Shown: in pieces, positions 3,385 to 35,868 of the stretch
Numbering within the stretch: position 1 is the stretch's first letter
How the letters are laid out: the number at the start of each line of letters is the position of its first letter
Assembly (NCBI RefSeq): GCF_025175675.1
Contig: NZ_JANIOA010000031.1
Location: 1-50,080 of the forward strand
Length of the DNA: 50,080 nucleotides
Direction: 5' to 3'
Source of the DNA: Sedimenticola hydrogenitrophicus
GTDB taxonomy: Bacteria > Pseudomonadota > Gammaproteobacteria > Chromatiales > Chromatiaceae
Translations under genes and position numbers: made by a program
Notes under the pieces: model-generated
Told to the model about the DNA's origin: nothing
What the model saw: only the letters and a program-made list of their open reading frames with translations
Database searches by the model: none

Positions 3385-3688
3385 TAACTACTCACGGGGT
3401 GATTGGCCTGCCTTGCCGGCGACGTGAACGGATTCACTAATGCCGCGGGGGCAGGGATGCCCAGGAGCGGCCTCACACGATGGCTTGTTTCCTCGAATCC
3501 GGCCTCTTTTTCAGCGCCTGTCCAAACTCGCTTCGCTCAGACAAGGGCAGGCTTGAATCTGAAAAAGAGGCCGGATTCGAGGCGCCATCGAGATCGACCA
3601 ACAAGGCAGGCCAATCACTTACAGACCGGGTGAGTAGTTACAGGTAGGAATTGGTTTTACTTGGCGCGCTTGGCGTCTTGGCGAGAGT
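3342..3688. repeat. Outer inverted repeat enclosing a family A element
   Basis: The arms, ACTCTCGCCAAGACGCCAAG at the left and CTTGGCGTCTTGGCGAGAGT at the right, are exact reverse complements over 20 bp. The family-A element 3385-3640 sits between them, so an older hairpin appears to have received a second element in or near its loop. Confidence 0.8.
3385..3640. repeat. Family A long element with a ~50-bp extra insert
   Basis: Terminal inverted repeats TAACTACTCAC/GTGAGTAGTTA bound a nested palindrome (TGATTGGCCTGCCTTG ... CAAGGCAGGCCAATCA, and inside it CCTCGAATCCGGCC ... GGCCGGATTCGAGG). Relative to the other copies it has an extra block of about 50 bp at roughly 3419-3469 with ATGCCGCGG and GAGCGGCC, which resembles an insert in the family-C copy at 27445. 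Confidence 0.8.
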
Positions 3689-3856
3689 GATGATCCTTTA
3701 CCGGTCCGGGACCGGAAAGGCACCGTGGGTACGGAAAGTTGTTCGGCCGCCTTGGGTGGCCCAGCTTTTGCGGCGCCCAACAAGCCCCCGGGTTTGCCGG
3801 TAGCTAAACTGGGCCGCGTCTATCCGGCGCTCTTGCAAGTGCGCCGGGCTGACTGA

Positions 3857-4243
3857 TCAGACCGCCTTGGTTACCTGTTCCCGGGTGTAGAAACGGCCCG
3901 AGCGCAGGAAACCGGCCACCACGCCGGGTCGTGCCGAGGCCACGTGACCGGCTGCGTCATAGCGGCTTACCCACTCTTCCGGCAGGCTGTCCAGCATATG
4001 GATCGGCGCCGGGCTGCCGTCGGCGTAGCGGGAGATGACGCTGCGCCCCGACCGGGTGTCATGGAAGGCCGGGACAAAGCCCTGGCCACGGTTTTGGCGA
4101 CTGACCCCGGGGCTACCCGCGTAGGCCCGGTTCTGTCCCGCCAGTGTCCGTTGACTCAACACGCCCTGCTGTTGGCTTGTCCGCTCTTGGGCCCGCGTTG
4201 CAGGGGCTGGCGGTTCCGTCATTTGTCCAGTTATCTGTTTCAT
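3857..4243 (-). CDS. Conserved uncharacterised protein
   Basis: From the ATG at 4243 (preceded by ATGGAG, spacing about 9) this is 128 aa. The first about 60 residues are rich in Gln, Thr, Pro and Arg and look disordered. The C-terminal half is compact and conserved-looking, with GFVPAFHDTRSG, ADGSPAPIHMLDSLPEEWV and GFLRSGRFYTREQV. I recall small proteobacterial hypothetical proteins with this GFVPAF/ADGxPAPxHxLDxLPEE/GRFYTREE pattern, but no function. The frame is open to 4399, but the upstream part is implausible as protein and lacks a ribosome binding site. It has no obvious operon partner; the cupin gene lies 225 bp upstream on the same strand. Confidence 0.7.
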   Translation of the reverse strand: MKQITGQMTEPPAPATRAQERTSQQQGVLSQRTLAGQNRAYAGSPGVSRQNRGQGFVPAFHDTRSGRSVISRYADGSPAPIHMLDSLPEEWVSRYDAAGHVASARPGVVAGFLRSGRFYTREQVTKAV

Positions 4244-4468
4244 TGTCACTGCTCCATTCCTACTTGCCAGAAACGGTGCATGACTCATGCCAATAAAATA
4301 AATAACCAACAAAAACAGTCGGATATAATTTTGGCCCGATGACGTGGGGTGGAAGGCTGTAACTATTTGTAAAGTTAGCTTAACAGTTCGTTGCACCAAC
4401 TCGGGGTCGGCGACGTTGCGGGAAGCGGTATCGGGCGACCGGAATTCCTCGCGGCCGCGGTCCGGAGA

Positions 4469-4813
4469 TCACTCGTAGGCGCTGGGTACCATGCACATGA
4501 ATACCAGCGGGCTGTCGCCGGTGTTGCGATACTGGTGCACCTCGTGAGGCTTGACCAGCAGATAGTCGCCCTGGCGTATCGGGTGGGGGGTATCCCCCAC
4601 CATGGCCACGCCGCTGCCCTCGAGTATGTAGTTCAGGTGCTCGCTTTCGTGGGCGTGGTGCGGAGTGTGCCCTCCCGGTTCCAGGGTGAAGACCCGGATG
4701 GAGAAGTTGGGGGCGCCGTCCGCCTTACCGATCGGCACCTGTTTGACCACCCCCTTGATGCCCTCCATGTTGACCGGAGTGGTTTCGCACGCGTTCAGTC
4801 GGGTGATCTTCAT
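4469..4813 (-). CDS. Small single-domain cupin protein
   Basis: This 114-aa protein is almost entirely one cupin beta-barrel. Motif 1 is visible as GGHTPHHAHESEHLNYILEGSG (His, His, Glu and His metal ligands, residues about 47-68) and motif 2 as GDYLLVKPHEVHQYRNTG (about 82-99). It should bind one metal ion in the cytoplasm. Small cupins of this type include enzymes and sensors, so a specific role cannot be named. It lies 29 bp downstream of the YdcH-like gene on the same strand and the two may share a transcript. The ATG at 4813 has AGGATCC upstream as a modest ribosome binding site. Confidence 0.85.
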   Translation of the reverse strand: MKITRLNACETTPVNMEGIKGVVKQVPIGKADGAPNFSIRVFTLEPGGHTPHHAHESEHLNYILEGSGVAMVGDTPHPIRQGDYLLVKPHEVHQYRNTGDSPLVFMCMVPSAYE

Positions 4814-4842
4814 GGCTCGGATCCTGCGGTAGGCTTCGATAA

Positions 4843-5055
4843 TCAGGCGTCCAGATCGGGGATCAACTCATCCTCGAGCTTGGCGATGGCGTCTTTCAAC
4901 AGCAGCTTGCGCTTTTTCAGGCGTTTCAGTTGTAGCTCATTTTTGTAACCGCCCTCCGACAGGGCGGCGATGGCAACATCCAGATCCCGGTGCAGTTGCC
5001 GGATTTCGAACAGCCGGTTTCTCAACTCTTCGTGTTGCTCGTCAATGGAGATCAT
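4843..5055 (-). CDS. YdcH family (DUF465) small coiled-coil protein
   Basis: This 70-aa, highly charged, all-helical protein begins MISIDEQHEELRNRL and contains LKRLKKRKLLLKDAIAKLEDEL, the Lys-rich helix typical of DUF465/YdcH proteins. It probably forms a helical hairpin or coiled coil. No biochemical role is established for the family. It lies about 100 bp downstream of valS on the same strand, separated by a hairpin at 5097-5143, and 29 bp upstream of the cupin gene. Confidence 0.85.
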   Translation of the reverse strand: MISIDEQHEELRNRLFEIRQLHRDLDVAIAALSEGGYKNELQLKRLKKRKLLLKDAIAKLEDELIPDLDA

Positions 5056-5096
5056 AGGCCGGTACTTAGTGGCTCAAACGGTATGTAAAGTTTAGT

Positions 5097-5143
5097 GGTC
5101 GCGGACCGTAGTGCAAACATTGTCGTTGCCTCGGCCCGCGACC
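5097..5143 (-). terminator. Hairpin downstream of valS
   Basis: The arms GGTCGCGG (5097-5104) and CCGCGACC (5136-5143) can pair exactly, 12 nt beyond the valS stop. No U-run follows on the minus strand, so it is a weak terminator candidate or an mRNA 3' stabiliser. Confidence 0.4.
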
Positions 5144-5155
5144 GTTCGCGTTGCG

Positions 5156-7981
5156 TTACAGGGCCTTGATCCTGGCCAGTTGGTGCTCTAGCTTTTCCAG
5201 CGCGGCAATCTCGTCCGCCAGCTTGTCGCGCTCTTTCTGTACCACGGCGTCGGGGGCCTTATCAACAAACTTCGGATTGTTCAGTTTTCCCTCGATACGA
5301 GCGATATTCTCCTTCAGTTTGCCGATCTCCTTGTGCAGGCGGCCCAGTTCGGCCTCCTTGTCGATCAGTCCGGCCATCGGGATCAGCAGCTTCATGCCGC
5401 CCACCAGGGCCATGGCCGATTCCGGGGCCTCTTCGTCACTGCCCAGCAGGGTGGCCGATTCGAGCCGCGCCAGGAAGTCCAGGTAGTGGCGGTTGCGCGC
5501 CAGGCGCGCCCGGTCCTCCGCGTCCGCGTTTTGCAGCAGCACCGGCAGCGGCTTGCTGGGGGCGATGTTCATCTCGCCCTTGATCTTGCGGATGCCGAGG
5601 ATGAACTGCATCACCCACTCCATCTCCGCTACCGCCGCCGGGTCCGTCAGGGCATCGTCCCGCACCGGGTACGGCTGGGTCATGATGGTCTCGCCGGATA
5701 CCCCCGCCAGTGGGGCGACGCGCTGCCAGATCTCCTCGGTGATATAGGGCATGATCGGGTGGGCCAGGCGTAACAGGCTCTCCAGCACCGTGACCAGGGT
5801 GTGGCGGGTGCCGCGCCGGGCCGCCTCGCTACTGCTGTCGCCGGTCAGCACCGGCTTGGAGAGCTCCAGATACCAGTCGCAGTATTCGTTCCAGGTGAAC
5901 TCGTAGATCGCCTTGGCGGCGTGATCAAAGCGGTAGCCATCGGTGGCCTCGGCCACCGTGCCGATGGTGGACTGCAGGCGGGCGAGGATCCAGCGGTCCG
6001 CCATGCTCAGTTCCAGCTCGCCCCCGGACTGGCCGCAGTCCTGTTGCTCGGTGTTCATCAGTACATAACGGGCGGCATTCCACAGCTTGTTGCAGAAGTT
6101 GCGGTAGCCCTCGATGCGTCCCATGTCGAACTTGATGTCGCGGCCGGTGGTGGCCTGGGAGGCGAAGGTGAAGCGCAGGGCGTCGGTGCCGAAGCTGGGG
6201 ATGCCGTCCGGGAACTCCTTGCGTGTCGCCTGCTCGATCTTCCTCGCCAGTCTAGGCTGCATCATGCCGCTGGTGCGCTTGCCGACCAGGGCCTCCAGCT
6301 CGATGCCGTCGATCAGGTCGATCGGATCCAGCACGTTACCCTTGGACTTGGACATCTTGTCGCCGTGGCTGTCACGTACCAGGCCGTGCACATAGACCTC
6401 CTTGAACGGCACGTCACCCATGAACTTGATGCCCATCATGATCATGCGGGCGACCCAGAAGAAGATGATGTCGAAGCCGGTTACCAGCACGCTGGTGGGG
6501 TAGAAGGTCTGGACCCGCTCGGTCTGCGCCGGCCAGCCCAGGGTGGAGAAGGGCCACAGGGCGGAGCTGAACCAGGTGTCCAGCACATCCTCGTCCTGGG
6601 TCAGGGGGTACTCTTCGGCCAGCTGGTGCTTGGCGCGCACCTCGGCCTCGGAGCGGCCAACGTAGACATTGCCCTCGTTATCGTACCAGGCGGGGATGCG
6701 GTGTCCCCACCAGATCTGGCGGCTGATGCACCAGTCCTCGATGTTGCGCATCCATTCGTAATAGGTGTTCTTCCAGTTGTCCGGCACAAACTTGATGCTG
6801 CCGTTCTCCACCGCCTCGATGGCCGGCTTGGCCAGTGGCGCCACCTTGACGTACCACTGGTCGGTGAGGAAGGGCTCGATCACCGAGCCGGAGCGGTCGC
6901 CGCGCGGCACCATCAGCTTGTGGTCGTCGATCTTCTCCAGCAGCCCCTGGGACTGCAGGTCGGCGACCACGCGCTTGCGGGCCTCGAAGCGGTCCTGGCC
7001 GATATAGGCGGCCGGGATAATCTTCTCCTCCTCTTCTTCGTGATCGCGGATCGCCGCGTCGCTGGTGAAGATGTTGATCAGGCCGCCGTGGGGCTGCTCG
7101 GCGATCGCCTTTTCGTCCCGGTGCCTGAGCCAGACCTGGTAGTCGTTGAAGTCGTGCGCCGGGGTGATCTTGACGCACCCGGTACCGAACTCCGGGTCGA
7201 CATAGTCGTCGGCGATGATGGGGATGCACCGCCCGGTCAGGGGCAGCTCCACGAACTCGCCCAGCAGGTGCTTGTAGCGCTCGTCACCGGGATGCACCGC
7301 CACCGCGCAGTCGCCCAGCATGGTCTCGGGGCGGGTGGTGGCCACCACCAGGTGACCCTGGCCGTTGCTCAGCGGGTAGCGCATGTGCCAGAGGAAGCCG
7401 TTCTCCTCCTCGGACAGCACCTCCAGGTCGGAGACGGCGGTGTGCAGTTTCGGGTCCCAGTTGACCAGTCGCTTGCCGCGATAGATCAACCCCTCCTCGA
7501 ACAGCCGAACAAACACCTCCTTGACCGCGTCCGAGAGGCCCTCGTCCATGGTGAAGCGCTCGTTCTCCCAATCCAGCGAGGCGCCCATGCGCCGCAGCTG
7601 GTTGGTGATGGTGCCGCCGGACTGGGCCTTCCACTCCCACACCTTTTCGAGGAACCGCTCGCGGCCATAATCGTGCCGGGTCTTGCCCTCGGCGTTGATC
7701 AGCCGCTCCACCACCATCTGGGTGGCGATACCGGCATGGTCGGACCCGGCCTGCCACAAGGTCTTGTCACCCTTCATGCGGTGATAACGGGTCAGGGCGT
7801 CCATGATGGTGTCCTGGAAGGCGTGACCCATGTGCAGGCTGCCGGTGACATTGGGCGGCGGGATCATGATGCAGTAGGGTTGCTGGCTGTCGGCGGCAGC
7901 GGAAGGGGCGAAATAACCGCGCTCCTCCCAGGTCTGATACCAACGCTTTTCCAGGCTGTGGGGGTCGTAAGTCTTTTCCAT
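5156..7981 (-). CDS. valS: Valine--tRNA ligase
   Basis: This 941-aa class I aminoacyl-tRNA synthetase charges tRNA-Val in the cytoplasm. The HIGH signature reads HMGH within [15 protein letters not shown] (residues 50-53). The KMSKS loop reads [20 protein letters not shown]. The CP1 editing domain is present ([17 protein letters not shown]). A C-terminal coiled-coil arm covers the last about 65 residues ([25 protein letters not shown]). Length is normal for gammaproteobacterial ValS. The ATG at 7981 fits the MEKTYDP start. A -10-like TATAAT on the minus strand at 8033-8038 could be its promoter. The long open frame on the plus strand across this gene is a high-GC shadow. Confidence 0.98.
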
Positions 7982-8032
7982 GGATCGTCAGGCTGTCTTG
8001 GTTCGGGTTAATCGGCAGGGATGAAACGGGGC

Positions 8033-8038
8033 ATTATA
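8033..8038 (-). promoter_or_regulatory. Putative -10 box for valS
   Basis: TATAAT on the minus strand, 52 nt upstream of the valS start. I see no good -35 at 16-18 bp, so this is tentative. Confidence 0.35.
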
Positions 8039-8219
8039 ACGCAAGCCTACCGGTTGAATTGCATATTTATCCCCCCATTCCAGGAGAATTTTTCTTGAGC
8101 CCTTGCTGAATATTCTGGGCTGGGAGGCGTAGTAGCCGCAAATATACGCCAATGAACGCGAATCAGCCTGTTGGGGTTTACCGGCTCACCCCAACGACTA
8201 CAAACCATGATGCCCATGG

Positions 8220-8296
8220 GTAGGATGCCGGTGAGGCACGAACCGCATCAAGCCTTACCTTGAATGATGCGGTTCGCAAGCTCACCAGCATCCTAC
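8220..8296. repeat. REP-like hairpin (TAGGATGCCGGTGAG family)
   Basis: An inverted repeat with GTAGGATGCCGGTGAG at the left and CTCACCAGCATCCTAC at the right, with GAACCGCATC/GATGCGGTTC inside. Related copies are at 15731-15820 and 37409-37487. Confidence 0.8.
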
Positions 8297-8362
8297 ATCG
8301 CCGGCAAGCACCTTAGCCTTGATGCACTCGCTATTTCCTCAGCTGGATAAACCGATCCATTT

Positions 8363-8506
8363 GCGTTCATTCCATCCTTAGGTCCGTAAACGGTGCATTG
8401 CATCCTCGGCTCCGTTTTCGGTACATGGCATCCTCGGCTCCGTAAACGGTACATCCGAGTACCACTCCTCCTTTACCACTCCTCTTGCACCACTCCTCGC
8501 GGCTGA
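8363..8506. repeat. Family B repeat with internal duplication
   Basis: This copy begins TGCGTTCATTCCATCC, continues through TTAGGTCCGTAAACGGTGCA and ends CACTCCTCGCGGCTGA. The blocks GCATCCTCGGCTCCG and ACCACTCCTC are repeated inside it, making it longer than the copies at 34001, 35922 and 37669. It lies between valS and the divergent oxidoreductase gene. Confidence 0.8.
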
Positions 8507-8618
8507 TTTTCATAAGGCAGCGACGTAAGAAAATCAGTTAAGATTGGGCGGACCGAAAGAAAAAGAGTCGTAGTGCGGTCAATTGCCATAAGAAACGTTA
8601 ATGATCCAGGGGAGTAAG

Positions 8619-10757: not shown

Positions 10758-10791
10758 GTGGGGGCAAAGCCGCTACCGGCCATCCCTGGAC

Positions 10792-10997
10792 GTACCTACT
10801 CAGGGGGGGATTGGCCTACCTTGTTGGCCGATCTTGATGGCGCCTCGAATCCGGCCCCTTTTTCAGATTAAAGCCTGCCCTTGTTTGAGCGAAGCGAGTT
10901 TGGGCAGGCGCTGAAAAGGGGGCCGGATTCGGGAAACAAGCCATCGTGTGAGGCCGGCAAGGCAGGCCAATCACTTACAGACCGCGTGAGTAGTTAC
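10792..10997. repeat. Family A long element (reverse internal orientation)
   Basis: It starts GTACCTACTCA and ends GTGAGTAGTTAC, with the nested blocks GATTGGCCTACCTTG, CCTCGAATCCGG, CAAGCC and GGCCGGATTCG in the opposite internal order to the copies at 3385 and 35663. It begins 34 bp after the stop of the oxidoreductase fusion. Confidence 0.8.
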
Positions 10998-11005
10998 CCC
11001 TGGAC

Positions 11006-13887: not shown

Positions 13888-14685
13888 ATGTCCCATGTGA
13901 CAACCGCAACACTGATACAGATGAAACAACAGCATGAAAAGATTGCTGTTTTGACCAGTTACGATGCCAGCTTCACCAGCCTGATCGAAGACGCAGGCGT
14001 GGAGGTGATCCTGGTCGGTGATTCGCTCGGGATGGTGATTCAGGGGCAGGAGAGCACGCTGCCGGTGGATGTGGAGGAGATGGTCTATCACACCCAGTGC
14101 GTGGCCCGCGGCCGCCGCAAGGCGCTGTTGATCGCCGATATGCCGTTCATGAGCTACAGCTCGGCCGAGCAGGCATTGGGGACCGCCGGACGGCTGATGA
14201 AGGATGGCGGTGCCCACATGGTCAAGCTGGAAGGCGGCGCCACCCAACTGGAGACGGTGCGGCAGCTGACCGCCAACGGCATTCCGGTCTGCGCCCATCT
14301 GGGCCTGTTGCCCCAGTCGGTGCATAAACTGGGCGGTTACCGGGTGCAGGGACGGGACGACGAGTCCGCACAGATCATGAAAGAGGATGCCCTGGCGCTG
14401 GAGGCGGCCGGTGCCCAGATGCTGGTGCTGGAGTGTGTCCCCAGCGGCCTGGCGCGCGAGATCAGCGAAGCGCTGGTGATCCCGGTGATCGGTATCGGTG
14501 CCGGTCCGGACTGCGATGGTCAGGTGCTGGTGGTGTATGACATGCTCGGTATCACCCCGCGTCAGGCGCCCCGTTTCGTGAAGAATTTCCTGCAGGATGC
14601 GCACTCGATCGCCGAGGCGATCGGTGGTTATGTCAAGGCGGTCAAGGACGGTAGCTTCCCCGGTGAGGAGCACAGCTTTAAATGA
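13888..14685 (+). CDS. panB: 3-methyl-2-oxobutanoate hydroxymethyltransferase
   Basis: This 265-aa enzyme converts 2-oxoisovalerate and 5,10-methylene-THF to ketopantoate, the first committed step of pantothenate and coenzyme A synthesis. The (beta/alpha)8 signature residues are clear: LTSYDASFTSLIEDAGVEVILVGDSLGMV, LIADMPFMSY, GGAHMVKLEGG, PVCAHLGLLPQSVHKLGGY, LECVPSGLA and VIGIGAGPDCDGQVLV. The length is typical. Its stop is separated from panC only by a family-A short element, so panB and panC should be one transcript. Confidence 0.97.
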   Translation: MSHVTTATLIQMKQQHEKIAVLTSYDASFTSLIEDAGVEVILVGDSLGMVIQGQESTLPVDVEEMVYHTQCVARGRRKALLIADMPFMSYSSAEQALGTAGRLMKDGGAHMVKLEGGATQLETVRQLTANGIPVCAHLGLLPQSVHKLGGYRVQGRDDESAQIMKEDALALEAAGAQMLVLECVPSGLAREISEALVIPVIGIGAGPDCDGQVLVVYDMLGITPRQAPRFVKNFLQDAHSIAEAIGGYVKAVKDGSFPGEEHSFK

Positions 14686-14687
14686 TT

Positions 14688-14795
14688 GTAACTACGCATG
14701 GGGTGATTGGTCTGCCTCGCCGGCCTCACATGATGGCTGGATCAAGATCGGCCAACAAGGCAGACCAATCACTCACCGACCGGGAGAGTAGTTCC
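14688..14795. repeat. Family A short element filling the panB-panC gap
   Basis: This about 108-bp copy starts GTAACTACGCA two bases after the panB stop and ends GAGAGTAGTTCC two bases before the panC ATG. The large inner palindrome of the long copies is absent; the arms TGATTGGTCTGCCT and AGGCAGACCAATCA remain and pair exactly, keeping compensating changes. Its right end reads GACCGGGAGAGTAGTTCC, so it provides the GGGAGAG that can serve as the panC Shine-Dalgarno. Confidence 0.85.
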
Positions 14796-14797
14796 AA

Positions 14798-15649
14798 ATG
14801 ATTACCGTCGAAACCGTTGCCGATCTGCGTCATACCATCGCCCGTTGGCGGGCGGCCGGCGAACGGGTGGCGCTGGTGCCCACCATGGGCAACCTGCATG
14901 AAGGTCATCTGGATCTGGTAAGGAAGGCGCGCTCGCTGGCGGATCGGGTGGTGGTCTCCATCTTCGTCAATCCGTTGCAGTTTGGCGAAGGCGAGGATTT
15001 CGCCGCTTATCCGCGTACCCTGCTCGATGACTCCGACAAGCTCAGCGCGGTGGCCGCCGACCTGCTGTTCACCCCGCCGGTGGACGAGGTGTACAGACGA
15101 CCCCGGTCGGAGCAGACCCGGATCGAGGTTCCAGGTTTGTCCGGTCAGTTCTGCGGTGCCTCGCGTCCGGGACACTTTGTCGGTGTCGCCACCGTGGTCT
15201 GCAAGTTGTTCAACATGGTCCAGCCCGACCTGGCACTGTTCGGCGAAAAGGATTACCAGCAGTTGCTGGTGATCCGCCGGATGGTCGAGGACCTGGCGAT
15301 CCCGGTGACCATCCATGGCCTGCCGACGGTGCGCGAGGTGGACGGCCTGGCGCGCAGCTCCCGGAACGGTTACCTGAGCGACGCGGAGCGCACTATTGCC
15401 CCCGTGCTCTACCGGCAACTGCAACAGACCGTGGCCGACATCAAACAGCGCAAGCACGATTTAGCCGCGCTGGAACGCCAGGCGCTGAGCCGGCTGGAGG
15501 CGGAAGGCTTCACGCCCGACTACTATGCCATTCGCCGCGCCGCCGATCTGGCCGAACCCGGTCCCGACGACAAATCCCTGGTGATCCTGGCGGCGGCCTA
15601 TCTGGGCAAGGCACGGCTGATCGACAATATCCAGTTGGACCTCGAATAA
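14798..15649 (+). CDS. panC: Pantothenate synthetase (pantoate--beta-alanine ligase)
   Basis: This 283-aa ATP-dependent ligase joins pantoate and beta-alanine through a pantoyl-adenylate. The HIGH-like motif is in VPTMGNLHEGHLDLV. VVSIFVNPLQFGEGEDF, RPGHFVGVATVVCKLFN, FGEKDYQQL and REVDGLARSSRNGYLS are the expected active-site segments. The ATG at 14798 has only the GGGAGAG contributed by the upstream repeat as ribosome binding site (spacing about 9 nt). It is in an operon with panB. Confidence 0.97.
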   Translation: MITVETVADLRHTIARWRAAGERVALVPTMGNLHEGHLDLVRKARSLADRVVVSIFVNPLQFGEGEDFAAYPRTLLDDSDKLSAVAADLLFTPPVDEVYRRPRSEQTRIEVPGLSGQFCGASRPGHFVGVATVVCKLFNMVQPDLALFGEKDYQQLLVIRRMVEDLAIPVTIHGLPTVREVDGLARSSRNGYLSDAERTIAPVLYRQLQQTVADIKQRKHDLAALERQALSRLEAEGFTPDYYAIRRAADLAEPGPDDKSLVILAAAYLGKARLIDNIQLDLE

Positions 15650-19179: not shown

Positions 19180-19355
19180 GGCTCTGAGTACAATGCTACT
19201 TAGTTAAGCTTAAAACTCCCGTCATTCCGGCGCAGGCCGGAATCCAGAGAAGCGACCACCATTGGTGGAAATGGATCCCGGCCTGCGCCGGAATGACGAT
19301 CCACTTACTTTCACGGGAATAGACTGCCTAATTAAGTGCCATTCGGCTCTGAGTA
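19180..19355. mobile_element. Element D copy 1 with flanking direct repeats
   Basis: The element body is about 19191-19343. It has imperfect terminal inverted repeats (AATGCTACTTAGTTAAG at the left; AATGGCACTTAATTAGG read from the right) and an inner palindrome CGTCATTCCGGCGCAGGCCG ... CGGCCTGCGCCGGAATGACG. It is flanked on both sides by CGGCTCTGAGTA (19179-19190 and 19344-19355), the pattern of a target-site duplication. No protein is encoded, so it is a MITE-like non-autonomous element. Confidence 0.8.
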
Positions 19356-27415: not shown

Positions 27416-27444
27416 GTGGTCATTCCCATCGGGTATGGAACTAA

Positions 27445-27655
27445 GGACCCGCGCAAGAATAAGTTCCGGTATTTGGTCGCCCCTGGACCCCGCTGGCGGC
27501 GTTACGCTTTTTGGCAAGGAAACAGCTTTGTCCAAGGATGGACTTATGCCGCGGAGGCCATGGATGGCCGGGAGCGGCCATTGCCTGCAAAGCGTGCCTT
27601 GCCAGCGGGGTCCAGGAACGCCCTCGGTACTACGGAATTATTCTTGCGCGAGCCC
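27445..27655. repeat. Family C inverted-repeat element, long form
   Basis: Terminal blocks GGACCCGCGCAAGAATAAG and TTATTCTTGCGCGAGCCC are near-perfect inverted repeats. Inside, CCCCTGGACCCCGCTGGC pairs with GCCAGCGGGGTCCAGG. Compared with the copy at 39107 it carries about 50 extra bases (about 27527-27580) with ATGCCGCGG and GGGAGCGGCC, resembling the insert in the family-A copy at 3385. It lies between divergent NRDE and DnaJ-related genes. Confidence 0.85.
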
Positions 27656-27667
27656 TAAGTTGAAAGT

Positions 27668-28279: not shown

Positions 28280-28324
28280 TTGACTCGCCGCGGCGCCAAC
28301 CCCCCGACTCCGCAGCCGCCAGAC

Positions 28325-28396: not shown

Positions 28397-28410
28397 GAAC
28401 GTGCTTTCTC

Positions 28411-29601
28411 CTAAATACCCATCTCCGTCTTGACCCGGCTGAACGCCGCGATGGCGAACTCCAGGTCTTCCGTGGTATGGGCCGCCGAGATCTGGGTGCG
28501 GATGCGCGCCCGGCCTTGCGGGACCACCGGGTAGGAGAAGGCCACCACGTAGATCCCCTGATCCAGCATGCGGCGGGCAAACTCCGCTGCCTTGGGTGCC
28601 TCGTAGAGCATGATCGGGACGATCGGGTGGCTGCCCGGCAACAGATCGAATCCGGCGCGTTCCAGGCCGTCGCGGAACAGGCGGGTGTTCTGCTGCAGCC
28701 GCTCGCGCAGTTCGCCGGACTCCTCCAGCAGGTCGAGGGCGGCGATGGCGCCGGCCACCACCGGCGGGGCCACGGTGTTGGAAAACAGGTAGGGACGGGA
28801 GCGCTGGCGCAGCAGTTCCACGATCTCGCGACGGCCGCTGGTATAGCCGCCGCTGGCGCCCCCCAGGGCCTTGCCCAGAGTACCGGTGGTGATATCCACC
28901 CGCTCCATGCAGCGGCAGTGCTCGTGACTGCCGCGCCCGCGCTCGCCGACAAAGCCGACGGCATGGCTGTCATCGAAATGCACCAGCGCCGGGTAGCGCT
29001 CCGCCAGGTCGCAGATCTTGTCCAGCTGGGCGTAGTAGCCGTCCATGGAGAAGACGCCGTCGGTGGTGATCAGCTTGAAGCGGGCACCATCGGCCTCCGC
29101 CCGGCGCAGCTGCCGCTCCAGATCTTCCATGTCGTTGTTCTTGTAGCGGTAGCGCCGGGCGCGGCAGAGCCGGACGCCGTCGATGATCGAGGCGTGGTTC
29201 AGCTCGTCGGAGATCACCGCATCCTCCTCGCCCAGCAGGGTCTCGAACAGGCCGCCGTTGGCGTCGAAGCAGGAGGGGTAGAGGATGGTCTCCTGCATGC
29301 CGAGGAAGCGGCTCAGCCGCTGTTCCAGGGTCTTGTGGATGGTCTGGGTGCCGCAGATGAAGCGCACCGAGGCGAGCCCGTAACCCCAGGTCTCCAGCCC
29401 CCGGGCGGCGGCCTCGCGGATCCTCGGGTGCTGGGCCAGGCCCAGGTAGTTGTTGGCGCACAGGTTGATGATCTCGGCGCCCTGCTCGACCGAGACATGG
29501 GCCCCCTGGGGTGAGGAGATGATCCGTTCGTCCTTGTACAGTCCGGCGGTGCGGATCGCGTCGAGCTGCTGCTGCAGATGTTGCTGAAATTGTCCGTACA
29601 T
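28411..29601 (-). CDS. kbl: Glycine C-acetyltransferase (2-amino-3-ketobutyrate CoA ligase)
   Basis: This 396-aa PLP enzyme splits 2-amino-3-oxobutanoate with CoA to glycine and acetyl-CoA, completing threonine catabolism begun by Tdh. The alpha-oxoamine synthase signatures are complete: [48 protein letters not shown], and the PLP Lys in [15 protein letters not shown]. It is 398 aa in E. coli, so the ATG at 29601 (with GGAGCAGGAGAC ahead) gives the right length; the frame is open further upstream through a repeat. It lies 119 bp downstream of tdh on the same strand, separated by a hairpin repeat. Confidence 0.97.
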
Positions 29602-29626
29602 GATGTCTCCTGCTCCTCCCGGTTTT

Positions 29627-29696
29627 GTAGGGTGGATAAGCCGGTAGGCGCATCCACCAATGCCGCGGTGGATGCGCTGTCGCTTATCCACTCTAC
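29627..29696. repeat. Hairpin repeat between tdh and kbl
   Basis: GTAGGGTGGATAAGC at the left pairs with GCTTATCCACTCTAC at the right, and GCGCATCCACC pairs with GGTGGATGCGC inside. As an intra-operon hairpin it could alter the tdh:kbl expression ratio. Confidence 0.75.
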
Positions 29697-29720
29697 AATC
29701 AGATCGATTGGGAAGGTGAC

Positions 29721-30752
29721 CTACTGGTCTTCCCAGTTCAGTATCACCTTGCCCGACTGGCCTGACAGCATGGCGTCGAAGCCGGCCTGGAAATCCGTGT
29801 AGGGGTAGTGGTGGGTGATCACCGGAGAGATATCCAGTCCCGCCTCGATGAAAACAGACATCTTGTACCAGGTCTCGTACATCTCCCGGCCATACACCCC
29901 CTTGATGGTGAGCATGTTGAAGATCACCGTGTTCCAGTCGATTCGGGTCTCTTCACCGACGATCCCCAGCAGGGCGATCTTGCCGCCGTGGCACATGTGA
30001 CTGATCATCTGGTTAAAGGCGTCGGCATTGCCGGACATCTCCAGCCCCACGTCGAAGCCCTCGCTCATGTTCAGCTCCTGTTTCACCTGCTCCAGGCTCT
30101 CGTGGCGCACATCCACCGTGCGGTCCGCTCCCAGCCGTTTCGCCAGTTCCAGGCGCCAGGGGTTGACGTCGGTAATCACCACGTGGCGGGCGCCGGCATG
30201 CTTGCAGACGGCCGCCGCCATGGCGCCGATCGGTCCGGCCCCGGTGATCAGCACATCCTCGCCCAGCAAGTCGAACTGCAGGGCGGTGTGCACCGCGTTG
30301 CCGAACGGGTCGAAGATGGCGGCCACGTCCAGATCGATGCCGGGGCGGTGTTCCCAGACATTGGACATGGGCAGGGCCAGGTACTCGGCGAAGGCGCCGG
30401 TGCGGTTGACCCCCACGCCGCTGGTGTGGGCGCACAGGTGGCGGCGGCCGGCCATGCAGTTGCGGCAGCGTCCGCACACCACATGGCCCTCGCCGGAGAC
30501 GATCTCCCCCGGCTTGAAGTCATTGACATTGCTCCCCACCTCGACGATCTCGCCGACGAACTCGTGGCCTACCACCATGGGTACCGGGATGGTTTTTTGC
30601 GCCCAGCTGTCCCAGTTGTAGATATGGATATCGGTGCCGCAGATGGCGGTGCGCTTTATCCTGATTAGTACGTCATTGATCCCGACCTTGGGCAGGGGCA
30701 CCTCCTGCAGCCAGATGCCGGGTTTTGCCTCTGCCTTGACCAACGCCTTCAT
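29721..30752 (-). CDS. tdh: L-threonine 3-dehydrogenase
   Basis: This 343-aa zinc-dependent medium-chain dehydrogenase oxidises threonine to 2-amino-3-oxobutanoate with NAD. Catalytic zinc ligands are in [11 protein letters not shown] and [10 protein letters not shown], the structural zinc site is [15 protein letters not shown], and the NAD fold is [18 protein letters not shown]. The ATG at 30752 gives [15 protein letters not shown], matching E. coli Tdh (341 aa). An ATG three codons upstream (30761) is possible. The reading to 31064 runs through repeats and is rejected. The 5' end of this gene and its leader are duplicated at 31152-31257. Confidence 0.97.
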
Positions 30753-30828
30753 CGTGTTCATGTGGATCCCGGAATCAAGTTCTATGATGAAATCAGTATA
30801 GCGCCCGGTTTGGTACGCGTTTCCACGC

Positions 30829-30947
30829 GGAGCGTGGGAACGAGGAAACCACGGATTCACACAGATAAACACGGATTCAGAACTCTGATCTCCTATCTGT
30901 GTGAATCTGTGTCTATCCGTGGTTCCTGTGACTCGTTCCCACGCTCC
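30829..30947. repeat. Family E inverted repeat (GGAGCGTGGGAACGAG)
   Basis: GGAGCGTGGGAACGAG (30829-30844) and CTCGTTCCCACGCTCC (30932-30947) are exact complements. Inside, AACCACGGATTCACACAGAT pairs with ATCTGTGTGAATCTGTG and ATCCGTGGTT. The last bases of the window (about 50063-50080, CTCGTTCCCATGCTCC) look like the edge of another copy. Confidence 0.8.
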
Positions 30948-31073
30948 GAGACTGTGAAAGTATTCAGGCTGATCAACGCGGCAAAAAAATTGACCGCCTG
31001 AGAAGCCCGTAGTAAGGCGATCGCCATCTCGGGAAGGGTTTGGGTACCCCCCTTTTCGCGTCATTTGGCAATT

Positions 31074-31100
31074 CTTTCACAGTCTCAGAGCGTGGGAATG
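31074..31100. repeat. Right arm of a second inverted repeat in the tdh-msrP gap
   Basis: CTTTCACAGTCTC followed by AGAGCGTGGGAATG is the inverted counterpart of 30934-30960 (CGTTCCCACGCTCCGAGACTGTGAAAG split as two blocks). The two arms bound about 113 bp of unique-looking sequence. Confidence 0.7.
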
Positions 31101-31119
31101 CATACCACGTTATAACAGC

Positions 31120-31142
31120 GTGGGCACAGAAGACGTGCCCAC
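31120..31142. repeat. GTGGGCAC/GTGCCCAC hairpin, copy 1
   Basis: GTGGGCAC and GTGCCCAC are separated by 7 bases and followed by TCTACGAAGC. A close relative lies at 48260-48282 followed by CCTACCAAGC. Confidence 0.6.
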
Positions 31143-31151
31143 TCTACGAAG

Positions 31152-31257
31152 CTTGACCAGCGCTTTCATGGTGTTTATGTGTATTCACGAATCGAATTTC
31201 GTGAAAGTCAGTGTAGCGCCCGGTTTGGTACGCGTTTCCACGCGGAGCGTGGGAACG
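31152..31257 (-). pseudogene. Duplicated tdh leader and first codons
   Basis: Read on the minus strand, this segment repeats the tdh 5' region (30735-30842): a 44-nt block (31214-31257) is identical to 30799-30842, and the part nearest the start has diverged. It includes ATGAAAGCGCTGGTCAAG, the equivalent of the first six tdh codons (M K A L V K), after which similarity stops. It is a truncated copy with no functional gene behind it. It may still carry a tdh-like promoter directed away from msrP. Confidence 0.75.
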
Positions 31258-31423
31258 TGGAACTCCTCACGGCTAAAACAACGGACCCGGACAGAACGGT
31301 ATTGCTCGCCAAACGGCGATGTTATCAAATTGTGATCATTGGGTGATGTCCGCGTCATTCGTTTTCCGCATAGTCTCCCCCATACTTGATTAAACACCGG
31401 CTCACCGATATGGGAATGATAAT

Positions 31424-32389
31424 ATGCTGATCAAAAGACCCGAGGCCATCAAACCTTCCGAGATCACCGACCAGGCCACCTACCTGGAGCGCCGCCGGTT
31501 CATCCGTGACAGCGGTCTGTTGGGGGTCGGTGTCGCAGCGACGCTGGCCGGTCTGCCCTGGGCGAAAAACTCCTGGGCCGAGGCGCCCGACCGCCGACCA
31601 TTCCCCGAACTGCGCAAGAGCCCGTTCAGCATCGATGAGAAACTGACCGAATACGAGGACGCCACCAGTTACAACAACTTTTACGAATTCGGCACCGGCA
31701 AGAGCGACCCGAAGGAGAATGCTCAGTCCTTCGTCCCCCGGCCCTGGTCGGTGGTGGTGGACGGAGCTTGTGAAAAGCCCGGCAGCTATGACCTGGAGGA
31801 CTTTCTGCGCCCCCATCCCCTGGAGGAGCGCATCTACCGGCTGCGCTGTGTCGAGGCCTGGTCGATGGTGATCCCCTGGGTGGGGTTCTCCCTGGGGGAC
31901 GCGCTGAAGCGCTTCCAGCCTACCTCCAGGGCGAAGTATGTGGCCTTTTATACCCTGCACGATCCTGAGCGGATGCCCGGGCAGAAGCGCCAGGTACTCA
32001 AGTGGCCCTATCGCGAGGGGTTGCGCATGGACGAGGCGATGCATCCGCTGGCGATGCTGGCAGTCGGCATGTACGGTGCCGAATTGCCGAATCAAAACGG
32101 TGCGCCGCTGCGCCTGGTGGTACCCTGGAAGTACGGCTTCAAGAGCATCAAGTCGATCGTGCGTATCAGCTTCACCGAGGAGCAGCCGGTCTGTACCTGG
32201 AATCAGGTGCAGCCGAACGAGTATGGTTTCTACTCCAATGTGAACCCCAACGTGGATCACCTGCGCTGGAGCCAGAAGAAGGAGCGGCGCATCGGCAACT
32301 GGCTGAAGCAGGAGACCCTGATGTTCAACGGCTACGCCGAGCAGGTGGCGTCGCTCTACAGCGGCATGGATCTGAAGCAATATTTTTGA
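31424..32389 (+). CDS. msrP: Protein-methionine-sulfoxide reductase catalytic subunit MsrP
   Basis: This 321-aa periplasmic molybdoenzyme (YedY) reduces methionine sulfoxide in envelope proteins. A Tat signal is visible: [25 protein letters not shown], with a cleavage region near SWAEAPDRR. The sulfite-oxidase-type fold has the molybdenum ligand Cys in [19 protein letters not shown]-terminal [14 protein letters not shown] is also family-typical. MsrQ follows after 15 bp, as expected. The ATG at 31424 gives a normal-length leader before the twin arginines. Confidence 0.96.
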
Positions 32390-32404
32390 TAGAGACCGGC
32401 TACT

Positions 32405-33067
32405 ATGACGCGTGCACAGATCATCACCCGGCTGCTCAAGCCGGCCCTGTTTGTCCTGCTGCTGGTACCCCTGGCGCTGCTGACAGGGCGCGGCATCACG
32501 GACAATCTGGGGGCCAACCCGGTGGAGACCATCACCTACCAGACCGGCCTCTGGGCGTTGCGCCTGCTGCTGCTCACCCTGGCCATCACGCCGCTCTGCA
32601 AGGTAACTGGAATCAATGAGTTTGTGCGCCTGCGGCGCATGACCGGCCTCTACAGCTTTTTTTATGCCTTGCTCCATTTCGCCACCTACGCCGTGCTGGA
32701 CCACAGTCTTGATTTGGCCGCGATCCTGGCGGATGTGGTCAAGCGTCCCTATGTGACGGTCGGATTCAGCGCCTTTGTGCTGCTGATTCCCCTGGCGGCC
32801 ACCTCGCACAACCGGATCATCCGGCTGCTCGGTGGCAAGCGCTGGAAGCGGCTGCACCGGCTGGTCTATCTGTGCGGTCTCGGCGGGGTGCTGCACTACC
32901 TCTGGCTGGTGAAGGCGGATACCCTGTCGCCGCTGCTCTACCTGGCGCTGTTCCTGGGCCTGATGTTGTTCAGGATTCCACCTCGGACCCGGGCGAAACT
33001 GGGAGACCTGCTGCGGCGGCTCGTGCCGATCCAGCGCGCGCAGCGGCTGCTGAAGGAGGAGCGCTGA
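32405..33067 (+). CDS. msrQ: Protein-methionine-sulfoxide reductase heme-binding subunit MsrQ
   Basis: This 220-aa polytopic membrane protein (YedZ) passes electrons to MsrP. It has about six transmembrane helices, for example ALFVLLLVPLALLTGRGI, LRLLLLTLAITPL and YVTVGFSAFVLLIPLAATS. Candidate heme ligands are His in YALLHFATYAVLDH and in LHRLVYLCGLGGVLHYLW. TGLWALRLLLLTLAITPLCK and RRMTGLYSFFYALLH match the ferric-reductase-like family. It starts 15 bp after msrP. Its stop is followed two bases later by a family-A short element. Confidence 0.95.
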   Translation: MTRAQIITRLLKPALFVLLLVPLALLTGRGITDNLGANPVETITYQTGLWALRLLLLTLAITPLCKVTGINEFVRLRRMTGLYSFFYALLHFATYAVLDHSLDLAAILADVVKRPYVTVGFSAFVLLIPLAATSHNRIIRLLGGKRWKRLHRLVYLCGLGGVLHYLWLVKADTLSPLLYLALFLGLMLFRIPPRTRAKLGDLLRRLVPIQRAQRLLKEER

Positions 33068-33069
33068 TG

Positions 33070-33178
33070 GTAACTACTCATGGGGTGATTGGCCTACCTT
33101 GCCGGCCTCACGTGATGGCTGGGTCAAGATCGGCCAACAAGGCAGGCCAATCACTTACAGACCGGGGGAGTAAGTTAC
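33070..33178. repeat. Family A short element filling the msrQ-DUF1223 gap
   Basis: This 109-bp copy starts GTAACTACTCA two bases after the msrQ stop and ends GAGTAAGTTAC two bases before the next ATG. Arms TGATTGGCCTACCTTG and CAAGGCAGGCCAATCA remain; the inner palindrome of long copies is missing, as in the copy at 14688. Its GACCGGGGGAGTAAG end gives a GGGGGAG that could serve as the ribosome binding site of the next gene. Confidence 0.85.
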
Positions 33179-33180
33179 CG

Positions 33181-33951
33181 ATGATGAAGATAAAGGCGTG
33201 GACCGGAGCCGGGCTGCTGGTGGCGACCCTGCTCGCGGGTATGGCGCTCGCGGGTACGGCACTGGCGGCCGACACCCTGCGGATCGCCAGTGGTGAACGA
33301 CGGGTCAACCTGGTGGAGCTCTACACCTCCGAAGGCTGCAGCAGTTGTCCGCCGGCGGAGGCTTGGCTGAATGGGTTTCTCCAGGAGAAGGGGCTGTGGA
33401 GTCGGGTGATCCCGCTGGCCTTTCATGTGGACTACTGGGACTACATCGGCTGGAAAGATCGTTTCGCCGAGGCACGTTTTTCCGATCGCCAGTACCGCTA
33501 TCAGCGGGAGGGCGGCATCCGCACCGTCTATACACCGGGGATGCTGCTGAACGGCAAGGAGTGGCGGCGCTGGTTGAACCAACGGCCGGCGGAGGCGGAT
33601 GAGCGGGTGGGCTCGCTGTCACTGGAACTGGACGGGGATCGGATCAGGGCCCGCTTCGAAGCGCTGGGACAACCGCCCGGGGCCTTGCGCCTGCACCTGG
33701 CGGTCCTGGCCTTCGGCCTGACCAGCGAGGTGGCGGCCGGGGAGAACCGGGGCCGTGAACTGGCCCATGAGTTTGTCGTGGTCGGGCTGAATGCAAGCGA
33801 CTCCGCGGATCTCAGCTGGCAGGCGTCACTGCCGGAGATTCGGCCGACCGGGGCCACTCGCCATGCCCTGGTCGCCTGGGTCAGCGAACCGGACAGCCAA
33901 CGCCCGTTGCAGGCCACTGGTGGCTGGCTGCCAAAGAGCCCGGGGCGGTAG
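33181..33951 (+). CDS. DUF1223 family thioredoxin-like secreted protein
   Basis: This 256-aa protein starts with a signal peptide (MMKIKAWTGAGLLVATLLAGMALAGTALAAD, cleavage probably after ALAA). The mature part begins with VNLVELYTSEGCSSCPPAEAWL, the CxxC-containing motif of DUF1223, on a thioredoxin-like fold, followed by FHVDYWDYIGWKDRFA. It should act in the periplasm as a thiol-disulfide or related protein. Lying directly behind msrPQ, it could help envelope oxidative repair, but this is inference. Its start is set by the family-A element that ends 2 bp upstream; the longer open frame runs through msrQ in another frame and is rejected. Confidence 0.9.
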   Translation: MMKIKAWTGAGLLVATLLAGMALAGTALAADTLRIASGERRVNLVELYTSEGCSSCPPAEAWLNGFLQEKGLWSRVIPLAFHVDYWDYIGWKDRFAEARFSDRQYRYQREGGIRTVYTPGMLLNGKEWRRWLNQRPAEADERVGSLSLELDGDRIRARFEALGQPPGALRLHLAVLAFGLTSEVAAGENRGRELAHEFVVVGLNASDSADLSWQASLPEIRPTGATRHALVAWVSEPDSQRPLQATGGWLPKSPGR

Positions 33952-34000
33952 GAGACCATGCCGCGCCAGGGGAGGGGGCATTCGGGCAGGAGAGTATTCC

Positions 34001-34086
34001 CGTTCATTCCATCCTTAGGTCCGTAAACGGTGCATTGCATCCTCGGCTCCGTTATCGGTACATCCCTGTACCACTCCTCGCGGCCG
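34001..34086. repeat. Family B repeat
   Basis: It runs from CGTTCATTCCATCCTTAGGT through CCGTAAACGGTGCATTGCAT to CCACTCCTCGCGGCCGA. It is a near copy, in the same orientation, of 8363-8506 without the internal duplication, and the reverse of 35922-36014. CCGTAAACGG is itself a short palindrome. Confidence 0.8.
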
Positions 34087-34202
34087 ACAACGCTGCCCGA
34101 CCGTCCTGGGTCCACAGAAACTTTCGGTTGGTTTGTTATTAACCCGGTCATGGTAAAAATCGACCTGTAGGAGCGGCGCCTCGCAGCGATATCGGCCCGG
34201 GG

Positions 34203-34232
34203 GCGGTGGATGCGCAAGCTTATCCACCCTAC
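34203..34232. repeat. Short GGTGGATGCG...ATCCACC repeat
   Basis: GCGGTGGATGCGCAAGC followed by TTATCCACCCTAC is a partial copy of the hairpin at 29627-29696. Confidence 0.5.
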
Positions 34233-34327
34233 AAGTACTAGCATTAACCATCAGTTTAGTGGGTGATTGAACCCGCCGGCGGGTGCCTATGGTATCATCT
34301 GCAACAAACCTGGATTGGGATGTTGTC

Positions 34328-35662
34328 ATGCGTGATGCCGTAACTGCCGTACTAGTACATGGGGATGAGGTGTTTGTCATCAGACGCCAGGACTACCTGC
34401 GCGCCTTTCCCGGCTATTACGCCTTTCCCGGCGGCAAGGTGGACGAGGAGGATGCCGGTTTCAGTTACAGTCACCCGCACCTTGCCGGGTTTCGACCGGA
34501 ACGCATCCGTGCCCTGATACGGGAACTGGACGAGGAATTGTCTTTCGACCTGGAACAGGCTCTCGAACAGGATCAAGTGGAGCGAATCGAGTTGATTGGG
34601 ATCGCCGCCACTCCATCTTTCGAACCGGTGCGCTTCCACGCCCACTACTACAAGATTGTGCTACGCTCCAAGCCGACGTTTACGCCAGCCAGCGACGAGA
34701 TTGCCTGGTCGGACTGGCTGCACCGCGAGGCGTTCCTGGAGCGCTACGAGACCGGCCAGGGGATGATGGTGGTGCCGATCATGCGCACCGCCCGGGCACT
34801 GGCCGAGGACATCACCACCAGCGTGATCGAGCCGTTCAGCCTCGACTACGATGAACAGCGCGAACTGGCCTACCTGGAGATGATCCGCGGTCTCGGTTAC
34901 ATACCCACCCGCTCCAACACCCTGCCGCCGGCCGAATATACCTATGCCCTGATCGTCGGTGACGGCGGGGCGCCGCGCTATCTGGTGGACCCGGCCCCGG
35001 CCTCGGACGAGGTGCTGGGACTGCTGTTCAATACCCTGGAGCGCTATCCGGTGGATGGCATCCTGATCACTCACCACCACCGGGATCATCATGAACGTTC
35101 ACCCGAGATTGCCCGGCGCTTGGGGCTGCCGATGCTCATCTCGGTCAAAACCCGCGAGTACCTGCTGCAGCATAACGGTGCCGACTACCTGGACGGCATC
35201 GAGTTCGTACCCGTGGAGGAGGGGACCCGGCTGACCCGCTGGCTGGGGCGGGATGTGCACTGCTACGAACTGCCCGGACACGATGACGGCATGATCGGGC
35301 TGGCACCCACGGACATGTCCTGGTTCTTCGTGGCGGACCTGGTACAACCGCTGGCCACGGTGGTGATCCCCGAACCGGAAGGCAATATGCAGGACTACTT
35401 CGATACCCTGCAGCGCATTATCGACCTGCAGCCCCGGGCGATCGTCTCGTCCCATGGCATCCCGATCGGCGGTACCCATCTGCTGGAGAAGACCCTGCAG
35501 CATCGCCGGGAGCGGGAGGCGCAGATCCAGGCGCTGATGGAGCAGGGAGATGACCTGGATCGGATCGTCAAGAGTCTCTACCGTGGCATCAACCGGAAAC
35601 TGATACCCTTGGCCGAGCAGAATGTGCGACAGCATCTGCGCAAGCTGGGACATCGGCTATAG
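34328..35662 (+). CDS. Nudix hydrolase / metallo-beta-lactamase fold fusion protein
   Basis: This 444-aa protein has an N-terminal Nudix domain (about residues 1-190) and a C-terminal metallo-beta-lactamase domain (about 200-420). The Nudix box is AFPGGKVDEED then, after an insertion of about 25 residues, ALIRELDEELSFDL, so REUXEE is intact. This spaced Nudix box recalls the NUDT19-like CoA-diphosphatase type. The MBL domain has the metal-binding ITHHHRDHHERS (HxHxDH), HCYELPGHDDGMIGL (third His), FFVADLV (bridging Asp) and SSHGIPIGG (last His), similar to the LACTB2 group. Substrates are unknown. Starts are GTG 34283, ATG 34289 and ATG 34328; MRDAVTAVLVHGDEVFVIRR fits best. Confidence 0.88.
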   Translation: MRDAVTAVLVHGDEVFVIRRQDYLRAFPGYYAFPGGKVDEEDAGFSYSHPHLAGFRPERIRALIRELDEELSFDLEQALEQDQVERIELIGIAATPSFEPVRFHAHYYKIVLRSKPTFTPASDEIAWSDWLHREAFLERYETGQGMMVVPIMRTARALAEDITTSVIEPFSLDYDEQRELAYLEMIRGLGYIPTRSNTLPPAEYTYALIVGDGGAPRYLVDPAPASDEVLGLLFNTLERYPVDGILITHHHRDHHERSPEIARRLGLPMLISVKTREYLLQHNGADYLDGIEFVPVEEGTRLTRWLGRDVHCYELPGHDDGMIGLAPTDMSWFFVADLVQPLATVVIPEPEGNMQDYFDTLQRIIDLQPRAIVSSHGIPIGGTHLLEKTLQHRREREAQIQALMEQGDDLDRIVKSLYRGINRKLIPLAEQNVRQHLRKLGHRL

Positions 35663-35868
35663 GTAACTACTCACCCGGTCTGTAAGTGATTGGCCTGCCT
35701 TGCCGGCCTCACACGATGGCTTGCCTCCTCGAATCCGGCCCATTTTTCAGCGCCTGCCCAAACTCGCTTCGCTCAGACAAGGGCAGGCTTGAATCTGAAA
35801 AAAGGGTCGGATTCGAGGCGCCATCAAGATCGGCCAGCAAGGCAGGCCAATCATCCCGTGAGTAGTTA
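35663..35868. repeat. Family A long element immediately after the Nudix-MBL stop
   Basis: GTAACTACTCACCCGG begins at the base right after the TAG stop, and the element ends GTGAGTAGTTA. The nested palindromes GATTGGCCTGCCTTG/CAAGGCAGGCCAATC and CCTCGAATCCGGCC/GGTCGGATTCGAGG are present, with the central CAAACTCGCTTCGCTCAG. Confidence 0.85.

Follow-up and report, generated by a model that had tools for sequence, protein, structure and literature searches.

The DNA analysed here, referred to as the window, is a stretch of 50,080 nucleotides at the start of contig NZ_JANIOA010000031.1 (C58) of Sedimenticola hydrogenitrophicus, whose genome comprises 4.7 Mb in 132 contigs. It carries six copies (c0 to c5, from left to right) of a short palindromic element with common 12-bp ends. 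A sequence-only reading had described them as a two-level system of nested inverted repeats in two sizes, without coding capacity and either a miniature inverted-repeat transposable element (MITE) or related to repetitive extragenic palindromes (REPs). All six copies are present, with 7 end matches at one mismatch or fewer against 0.06 expected, and their proposed limits were broadly right, three being one base short and corrected in the coordinates below.

Copy c0 (1..96, exact end at 85-96) is cut off, the contig beginning at window base 1. Copy c1 (3384..3641, 258 bp, flanks AGCCAGGA/AGGTAGGA matching at 6/8 positions) is of the long type and contains a nested two-hairpin repeat of ~50 bp (3421..3470), to which an insert in element L044 is related; c1 itself is inserted into a larger palindromic repeat (CTCTCGCCAAGACGCCAAG.../...CTTGGCGTCTTGGCGAGAG, 3343..3687), whose spacer, as judged by eye, is inverted relative to the congener G082 (S. 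hydrogenitrophicus SN1189). Copy c2 (10792..10997, 206 bp, long type) is framed by the 8-bp target site duplication (TSD) CCCTGGAC at 10784..10791 and 10998-11005. Copy c3 (14688..14795, 108 bp, short type) has the TSD AAATGATT at 14680..14687 and 14796-14803, which includes the TGA stop of an open reading frame (ORF) ending at 14685. Copy c4 (33070..33178, 109 bp, short type) has flanks CGCTGATG/CGATGATG matching at 7/8 positions. Copy c5 (35663..35869, 207 bp, long type) lies between GGCTATAG and GGCTATTG, the former including the TAG stop of an ORF ending at 35662. In three copies (14688, 33070 and 35663) the stop codon of the upstream frame falls inside the left 8-mer, and the frame is therefore kept.

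From outside to inside, the element consists of the 12-bp ends, asymmetric spacers and a stem with TGATTGGCCTGCCTTG, to which long copies add a second stem and a loop. In c5 the outer arms TGATTGGCCTGCCTTG and CAAGGCAGGCCAATCA lie at 35687..35702 (+) and 35838..35853 (+), the inner arm CCTCGAATCCGGCC at 35727..35740 (+) with its partner at 35805-35818, and the terminal loop AAACTCGCTTCGCTCAGACA, which is also a hairpin loop in unrelated genomes, at 35760..35779 (+). The extra palindrome ascribed to long copies, CCTCGAATCCGGCC/GGCCGGATTCGAGG around CAAACTCGCTTCGCTCAG with some mismatches, is seen in them and not in the short copies, and the two-level nesting is borne out, with further levels added. 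Strong hairpins are predicted for the copies. In the five window copies that are complete, frames without a stop run to 36-76 amino acids at most, in line with the absence of coding capacity. Genome-wide profile searches gave neither a PF03050 nor a PF01797 match on the window's contig, the window not having been checked gene by gene for a transposase, and a Pfam scan found no transposase among 10 long window frames. Rfam searches with the MITE returned weak off-target matches only.

Across the genome, the exact 12-base end GTAACTACTCAC occurs 174 times (86 forward and 88 reverse), with 0 and 0 occurrences of a reversed-pattern control. Six copies only would have argued against a mobile family, and this abundance favours mobility. 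Elements were delimited by pairing ends in the window and in 80 stretches, taken around those of the first 100 listed exact-end places that lie on other contigs and around ten strong matches. With c4 added by hand, this gave a set of 72 elements of 27-418 bp, 36 of them at 200-215 bp, 17 at 237-314, 10 at 107-109, 5 at 27-36, 3 at 68-100 and 1 larger, so that the two sizes proposed earlier are the two main modes of a wider range. Among the 60 elements with both arms recognised, the interior occurs both ways relative to the asymmetric ends (28 and 18 for long, 8 and 6 for short elements). The modules, i.e. short or long interior, simple or composite right end and loop-nested repeats, combine in many ways, and a few elements with GTAACTACTCAC ends carry quite different interiors. 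An exact interior 24-mer was found in the GTDB collection in Sedimenticola only (40 stretches, 39 in S. hydrogenitrophicus and 1 in S. selenatireducens), the own genome possibly being excluded from that count, and a search for the MITE on plasmids and phages gave no match. Element L031 (1024-1441) holds a second MITE-like element nested inside, with ends GTAACTATTCAG and a AACTGAAC duplication; L157 is an IS66 element with such ends.

The flanks of the elements argue for transposition. The adjoining 8-mers match at 8/8 positions in 30 of the 72 elements, at 7/8 in 22, at 6/8 in 7 and at fewer in 13; 52 elements thus reach 7 or 8, while none of 225 offset controls reaches 6. Comparison with G082, the nearest relative, and with G083 (S. 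selenatireducens DSM 17993), together the two nearest congeners, supplies the corresponding empty sites. None of the 8 congeners searched has c3 at the corresponding position. When its two flanks are aligned to G082 and to G083, the alignments share exactly 8 bases, and each of these genomes thus has a single copy of the target. Five further elements (L033, L036, L043, L050 and L071) have a single-target empty site with the same 8-base overlap in G082. Copies c2 and c4 are shared with G082 and were not found at their sites in G083; c5 was not found at its site in either genome, where its right flank is also rearranged. Homologous sequence at the same loci in distant relatives would have spoken against mobility, and these absences favour it instead. 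As expected of a MITE, the elements are short, non-coding and present in high copy number, with terminal inverted repeats, a fixed-length 8-bp TSD and insertion polymorphism at an intact single target (c3 and the five further elements). As for target choice, a strict target sequence was rejected, only a weak symmetric bias being seen. Insertion into hairpins or terminators was likewise rejected, since less structure is predicted at empty sites than around them (mean -12.1 vs -16.6 kcal/mol; lower in 15/52).

The source of the ends was sought in other genomes, and an order-level scan found the exact end in 23 of 210. Three elements from other genera share it: L010, an insertion sequence (IS) of 2264 bp with the TSD AGATATTG twice (8/8) and an IS66 transposase gene in two frames; L011, an IS of 1712 bp with one ORF of 488 amino acids; and L012, a deleted remnant of 294 bp with the TSD CTTCGATG twice (8/8). 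The proteins of L010 and L011 are IS66 transposases by Pfam (PF03050), L011 also by the NCBIfam IS66 model, so that a DDE_Tnp_IS66 transposase lies between the ends of the autonomous elements. GTAA tips together with an 8/8 duplication are seen in L010, L012, L151, L152 and L158, candidates having been ranked partly by TSD. We take the single-ORF IS66 elements to be the ISBst12-like group. That group appears as a table entry in PMC8024623. The MITE resembles this group in its GTAACTACTCAC ends and in the 8-bp duplication of L010 and L012, the IS66 transposase being present in L010, L011 and remnants; it differs in having neither a transposase nor an IS interior. The same ends are also numerous in two genomes of other genera, G027 (64) and G038 (8), with different interiors in the stretches seen. 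An 8-bp duplication flanks one of these elements, L029 in G038, and the transposase matches listed do not include G027; this suggests that the end-sharers in G027 and G038 are separate MITE families.

The L011 transposase has matches in 55 of the 210 genomes and in none of 9 Sedimenticola genomes at E 0.001. The family thus looks orphaned, with no cognate transposase found in these nine genomes, which are drafts. Two candidates closer at hand were rejected. The sole PF03050 match in the own genome, remnant L005, gives no match to the GTAACT-lineage transposase at 1e-3 and has end-like sites at chance level; it is of another lineage. G082 has four PF03050 matches, and at none of the four loci is there a MITE end at 2 mismatches; the only one with recognised ends, L152, has GTAAGCG.

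Together, these data reveal 12-bp ends, 8-bp TSDs, empty sites, IS66 elements with identical ends (two of the three with a duplication) and no cognate transposase detected in the genus. With a probability of about 85%, we read the elements as a non-autonomous MITE family with the ends of single-ORF IS66-family elements, which would have been moved in trans by a transposase since lost and which would be remodelled through its hairpins. The earlier suggestion of a REP-like system would instead have the palindromes, of REP or REPIN type, moved by a REP-associated tyrosine transposase (RAYT), a Y1 transposase. In such systems the RAYT gene is flanked by the repeats and no target duplication is made. 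The elements do share with them an intergenic location, palindromic structure and high copy number, and the genome has 5 Y1 matches. However, the 8-bp duplications, the single-target empty sites and the IS66-type ends are at odds with a RAYT, and none of nine window repeats, both MITE sizes included, is found around the four Y1 loci examined, which makes this alternative very improbable.

The second part of our reading concerns changes of the elements in place. Twenty insertions shared with G082 were compared, 15 from G082 stretches largely picked for holding the repeat, and hence biased to shared sites, and 5 from 26 probes drawn from the 41 remaining elements with a good TSD; 20 G082 regions were then read. 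The other 21 probes comprised 5 single-target empty sites, 7 sites free of the element with altered or unclear flanks (L031, L045, L046, L054, L063, L078 and L079), 3 unclear cases (L034 with one flank only, L057 with an element whose close flanks differ, and L070 with an unrelated insert) and 6 without a usable match (L032, L037, L038, L051, L065 and L067). In the first comparison set, G082 had no element at the c3 and c5 sites, and L048 did not lend itself to comparison. At L225, the target of the own 35-bp scar L070 holds an unrelated 141-bp insert in G082.

The layout is kept at 8 of the 20 shared sites (c2, c4, L059, L064, L066, L089, L094 and, barring a nested repeat unit, L060) and differs at 12 by flips, collapse, swaps between long and short, or nested insertions, even though identity in the aligned flanks is mostly 91-99% (84% for one flank of c1). 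Deletions distinguish the two genomes at five sites: L041 and L056 measure 100 bp in the own genome vs 207 in G082, L092 35 vs 207, L058 207 vs 35, and L076 207 vs 186. The differences at L092 and L058 are reciprocal, and the 35-bp form has the same junction in the own L092 as in its G082 counterpart at L058. This junction, which lies between TCAC repeats at the stem base, is also that of the own 35-bp scar L070. A long form stands against a short one at four sites (c1, L049, L039 and L040), nested inserts are the sole difference at L044 and L053, and a flip is the sole difference at L072. Flips in total involve c1 with its flanks, L049 and L072 as a whole and L056 in its interior, where the string CTCACATGATGG changed sides along with the interior. 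This supports, without proving, a flip of the same insertion at L056, CTCACATGATGG being a minority variant (5/72 elements). At L041, one change relative to G082 is mirrored in both arms. The ~50-bp two-hairpin repeat also occurs in the loop of the MITE at L053; it was probably mobile recently, because it is present in the own L044 and missing from the same site in G082. A second small hairpin repeat, of the GGTACATCC...CACTCCTC type, is found in the window at 8359-8470, 33996-34090 and 35919-36013 and is also nested within MITE copies.

A mechanism that would account for these observations is as follows. An IS66-type transposase would have moved the elements in trans through their ends, either in the present Sedimenticola lineage or before it arose, and would later have been lost; its occasional arrival could remobilise copies. 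The insides of the MITE are nested palindromes unrelated to the IS, which, to judge from the layouts at shared sites, may extrude hairpins during replication. Collapse of elements to ~35-bp scars would result from slippage between short direct repeats that lie at the base of the stem; polymerase switching between the arms, or recombination between copies, would homogenise arms, flip spacers or whole elements and swap long interiors for short ones; and other tiny hairpin repeats insert into the MITE loop. Insertions survive chiefly between genes, and somewhat more often near stop codons. Slippage and template switching are probably the best cause of the remodelling. In PMC8604942, switching of the template from one repeat arm to the other is reported to homogenise arms and to invert spacers, and our case resembles such remodelling (see also PMC8794818) in exactly these two outcomes. 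It differs in that PMC8604942 deals with coding repeats of yeast, whereas here a multicopy mobile family is affected, which also collapses to TSD-flanked scars.

Several points weigh against this reading. Fifteen exact ends in the stretches were left unpaired, and the TSD count is somewhat inflated because a TSD match served as tie-break in the pairing of ends. L011 lacks a TSD, and the duplications of L150 (5/8) and L153 (2/8), both canonical IS66 elements with GTAA tips, are poor. The cognate transposase is deduced from the 12-bp ends only, no internal IS sequence having been seen in the MITE. As to the remodelling, both compared genomes are drafts (~120-132 contigs), and some of the 207-bp interiors could be misassembled; the 35- and 100-bp scars and the flips beside unique flank should be less exposed to this. 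Nor are the variants that move with the flips unique to the flipped copies, CTCACATGATGG occurring in 5 and GTGACTGG in 2 of the 72 own elements, and independent insertion or conversion is therefore possible at the flipped sites. The long/short swaps could likewise be conversion by another copy.

These last points also speak for a different origin of the variation, in which size classes and flips come solely from independent transposition of pre-existing subfamilies and from gene conversion, and not from hairpin-driven errors of replication. The many combinations of modules fit such an origin, as does the short form of G082 at the L039 site, whose variant haplotype is shared with the L064 copy. 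The reciprocal 207/35-bp differences, at different sites with the same junction and intact flanks, are harder to obtain by conversion, and so is an interior flip that retains a minority variant. We consider this origin unlikely as the sole source, yet a contender to be taken seriously.

The sequence-only reading had further taken compensating base changes in the arms at 14688 as a sign that RNA pairing is maintained. The mirrored change in c3 is real, and mirrored changes exceed expectation in both stems: 7 vs 1.2 in the outer stem (60 elements; 2 of 2000 shuffles reach 7) and 9 vs 2.7 in the inner stem (47 elements; 0 of 2000 shuffles). Yet they are a minority across copies, since 33 of 40 left-arm changes in the outer and 42 of 51 in the inner stem are not mirrored, and the case for maintained pairing shrinks to a weak excess over shuffles. 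This excess would be explained by arm-to-arm copying without selection on RNA. We read the mirrored changes as occasional arm-to-arm copying. Conversion between copies, as the haplotype shared by the G082 form at L039 and by L064 indicates, probably contributes to the variation.

The position of the elements relative to heuristic gene calls bears on the same question. The 72 elements lie in 23 convergent, 33 tandem and 11 divergent gaps, with 4 inside weak frames and 1 at an edge. Of 56 TSD centres, 18 lie no more than 8 bp from a stop end, where 11.4 would be expected (34 of 5000 draws attain 18). One might suppose that stop codons are preferred as targets, but the enrichment is modest and selection would explain it. 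These positions, the strong predicted hairpins and the excess of mirrored changes might indicate that the elements are kept for a host function, as structured RNAs or as terminators at gene ends. However, most arm changes are unpaired, 12 of the 20 shared sites are remodelled and several collapsed, the insertions are polymorphic between the sister species, and Rfam finds nothing in the window at gathering score except a tRNA. The position bias would also result if insertions in genes and promoters were removed by purifying selection. Nothing in these data demonstrates a host function, and retention for that reason appears improbable.

The terminal loop of the long copies has a distribution of its own. 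In a class-level scan of 369 genomes, some part of the long copy is matched in 7 besides the own genome. Five loci were read, and in each the match is at the loop; in G569, one of the seven genomes, it lies elsewhere. The loop is also found on a few plasmids from several phyla, on one phage and on viral contigs; in the latter the exact 20-base loop gave 0 stretches and two 19-base forms gave 7 and at least 80, while a 35-base loop query had no match in E. coli. Carriers are the window (35760-35779) and stretches L238-L243, L245 and L250-L321. Merging similar flanks reduced 52 loop contexts to 33 dissimilar ones, the window's own being merged with that of L238. At least 7 of 8 stem pairs adjoin the loop in 18 of the 33 (0.6% under the null), and all four Watson-Crick pairs are seen at 7 of 8 stem positions. 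Among the carriers that form a stem are plasmids of Aureibacter, Ilyobacter and Marinobacter, other gammaproteobacterial families and viral contigs, and on a Parabacteroides plasmid the stem pairs at another offset. The loop string alone is not diagnostic, because 15 of the 33 contexts, including Butyrivibrio and phage pYD6-A, have fewer than 7 of 8 pairs. In the own stretches, 50 of 50 loop matches appear to fall within the MITE. Rfam searches on nine loop carriers gave weak matches except for TwoAYGGAY, just above gathering score at 570-694 of L245 (Marinobacter adhaerens plasmid pHP-187), beside the loop at 401-419 and not on it. We tentatively consider, at somewhat less than even odds, that the core of the long MITE is one of a much broader and so far undescribed class of nested hairpins, with the loop AACTCGCTNCGCTCARACA conserved across phyla on stems that have no sequence in common yet pair, the IS66 ends being merely its vehicle. 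A loop kept constant while its stems vary freely would point to a protein that binds it, or to a function as RNA or single-stranded DNA. Elsewhere in the window, other dispersed repeat families lie at 19220-19279 and 37613-37672, at 30790-30847 and 31205-31262, and at 27441-27657 and 39103-39267.

MITEs tied to a named IS family have been described in several bacteria, each with the IS in the same genome: MITEPsy1 with an IS5-type element (the type being queried; PMC3189936), MITECca01 with IS982 (PMC9769881) and MITEPye1 with IS1182 (PMC11578231), all three linked by their ends, and MITEPsy3 with an IS630-type element (PMC6053426). The Sedimenticola MITE resembles these four in being short, non-coding and tied to a named IS family; in contrast to them, it is of IS66 type and no such transposase was found in its genus. 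PMC12888890 describes a MITE with a 4-bp repeat. No IS66-derived MITE is evident among the literature matches listed, and none from Sedimenticola appears in the best 15 of 849 matches. The end sequence occurs in the literature in one unrelated paper only; the loop sequence, among the matches listed, occurs in one soil-bioremediation paper only, and its 15-mers in none. The Correia elements, MITEs of Neisseria, belong to another host and have other ends, and their promoters and RNase III processing are known. Their likeness to the present family is that of palindromic MITEs, and inversion of the element is reported for them (reviewed in PMC10969869).

The family provides a natural experiment on palindrome instability, in which insertions identified by their TSDs can be followed in two sister species. 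Where MITE size classes and apparent compensatory changes come from can thereby be put to a direct test. It also serves as a warning that compensatory changes in mobile hairpins are not proof of an RNA function. The trans-phylum loop motif, if true, would add a structured element that is new and calls for explanation.

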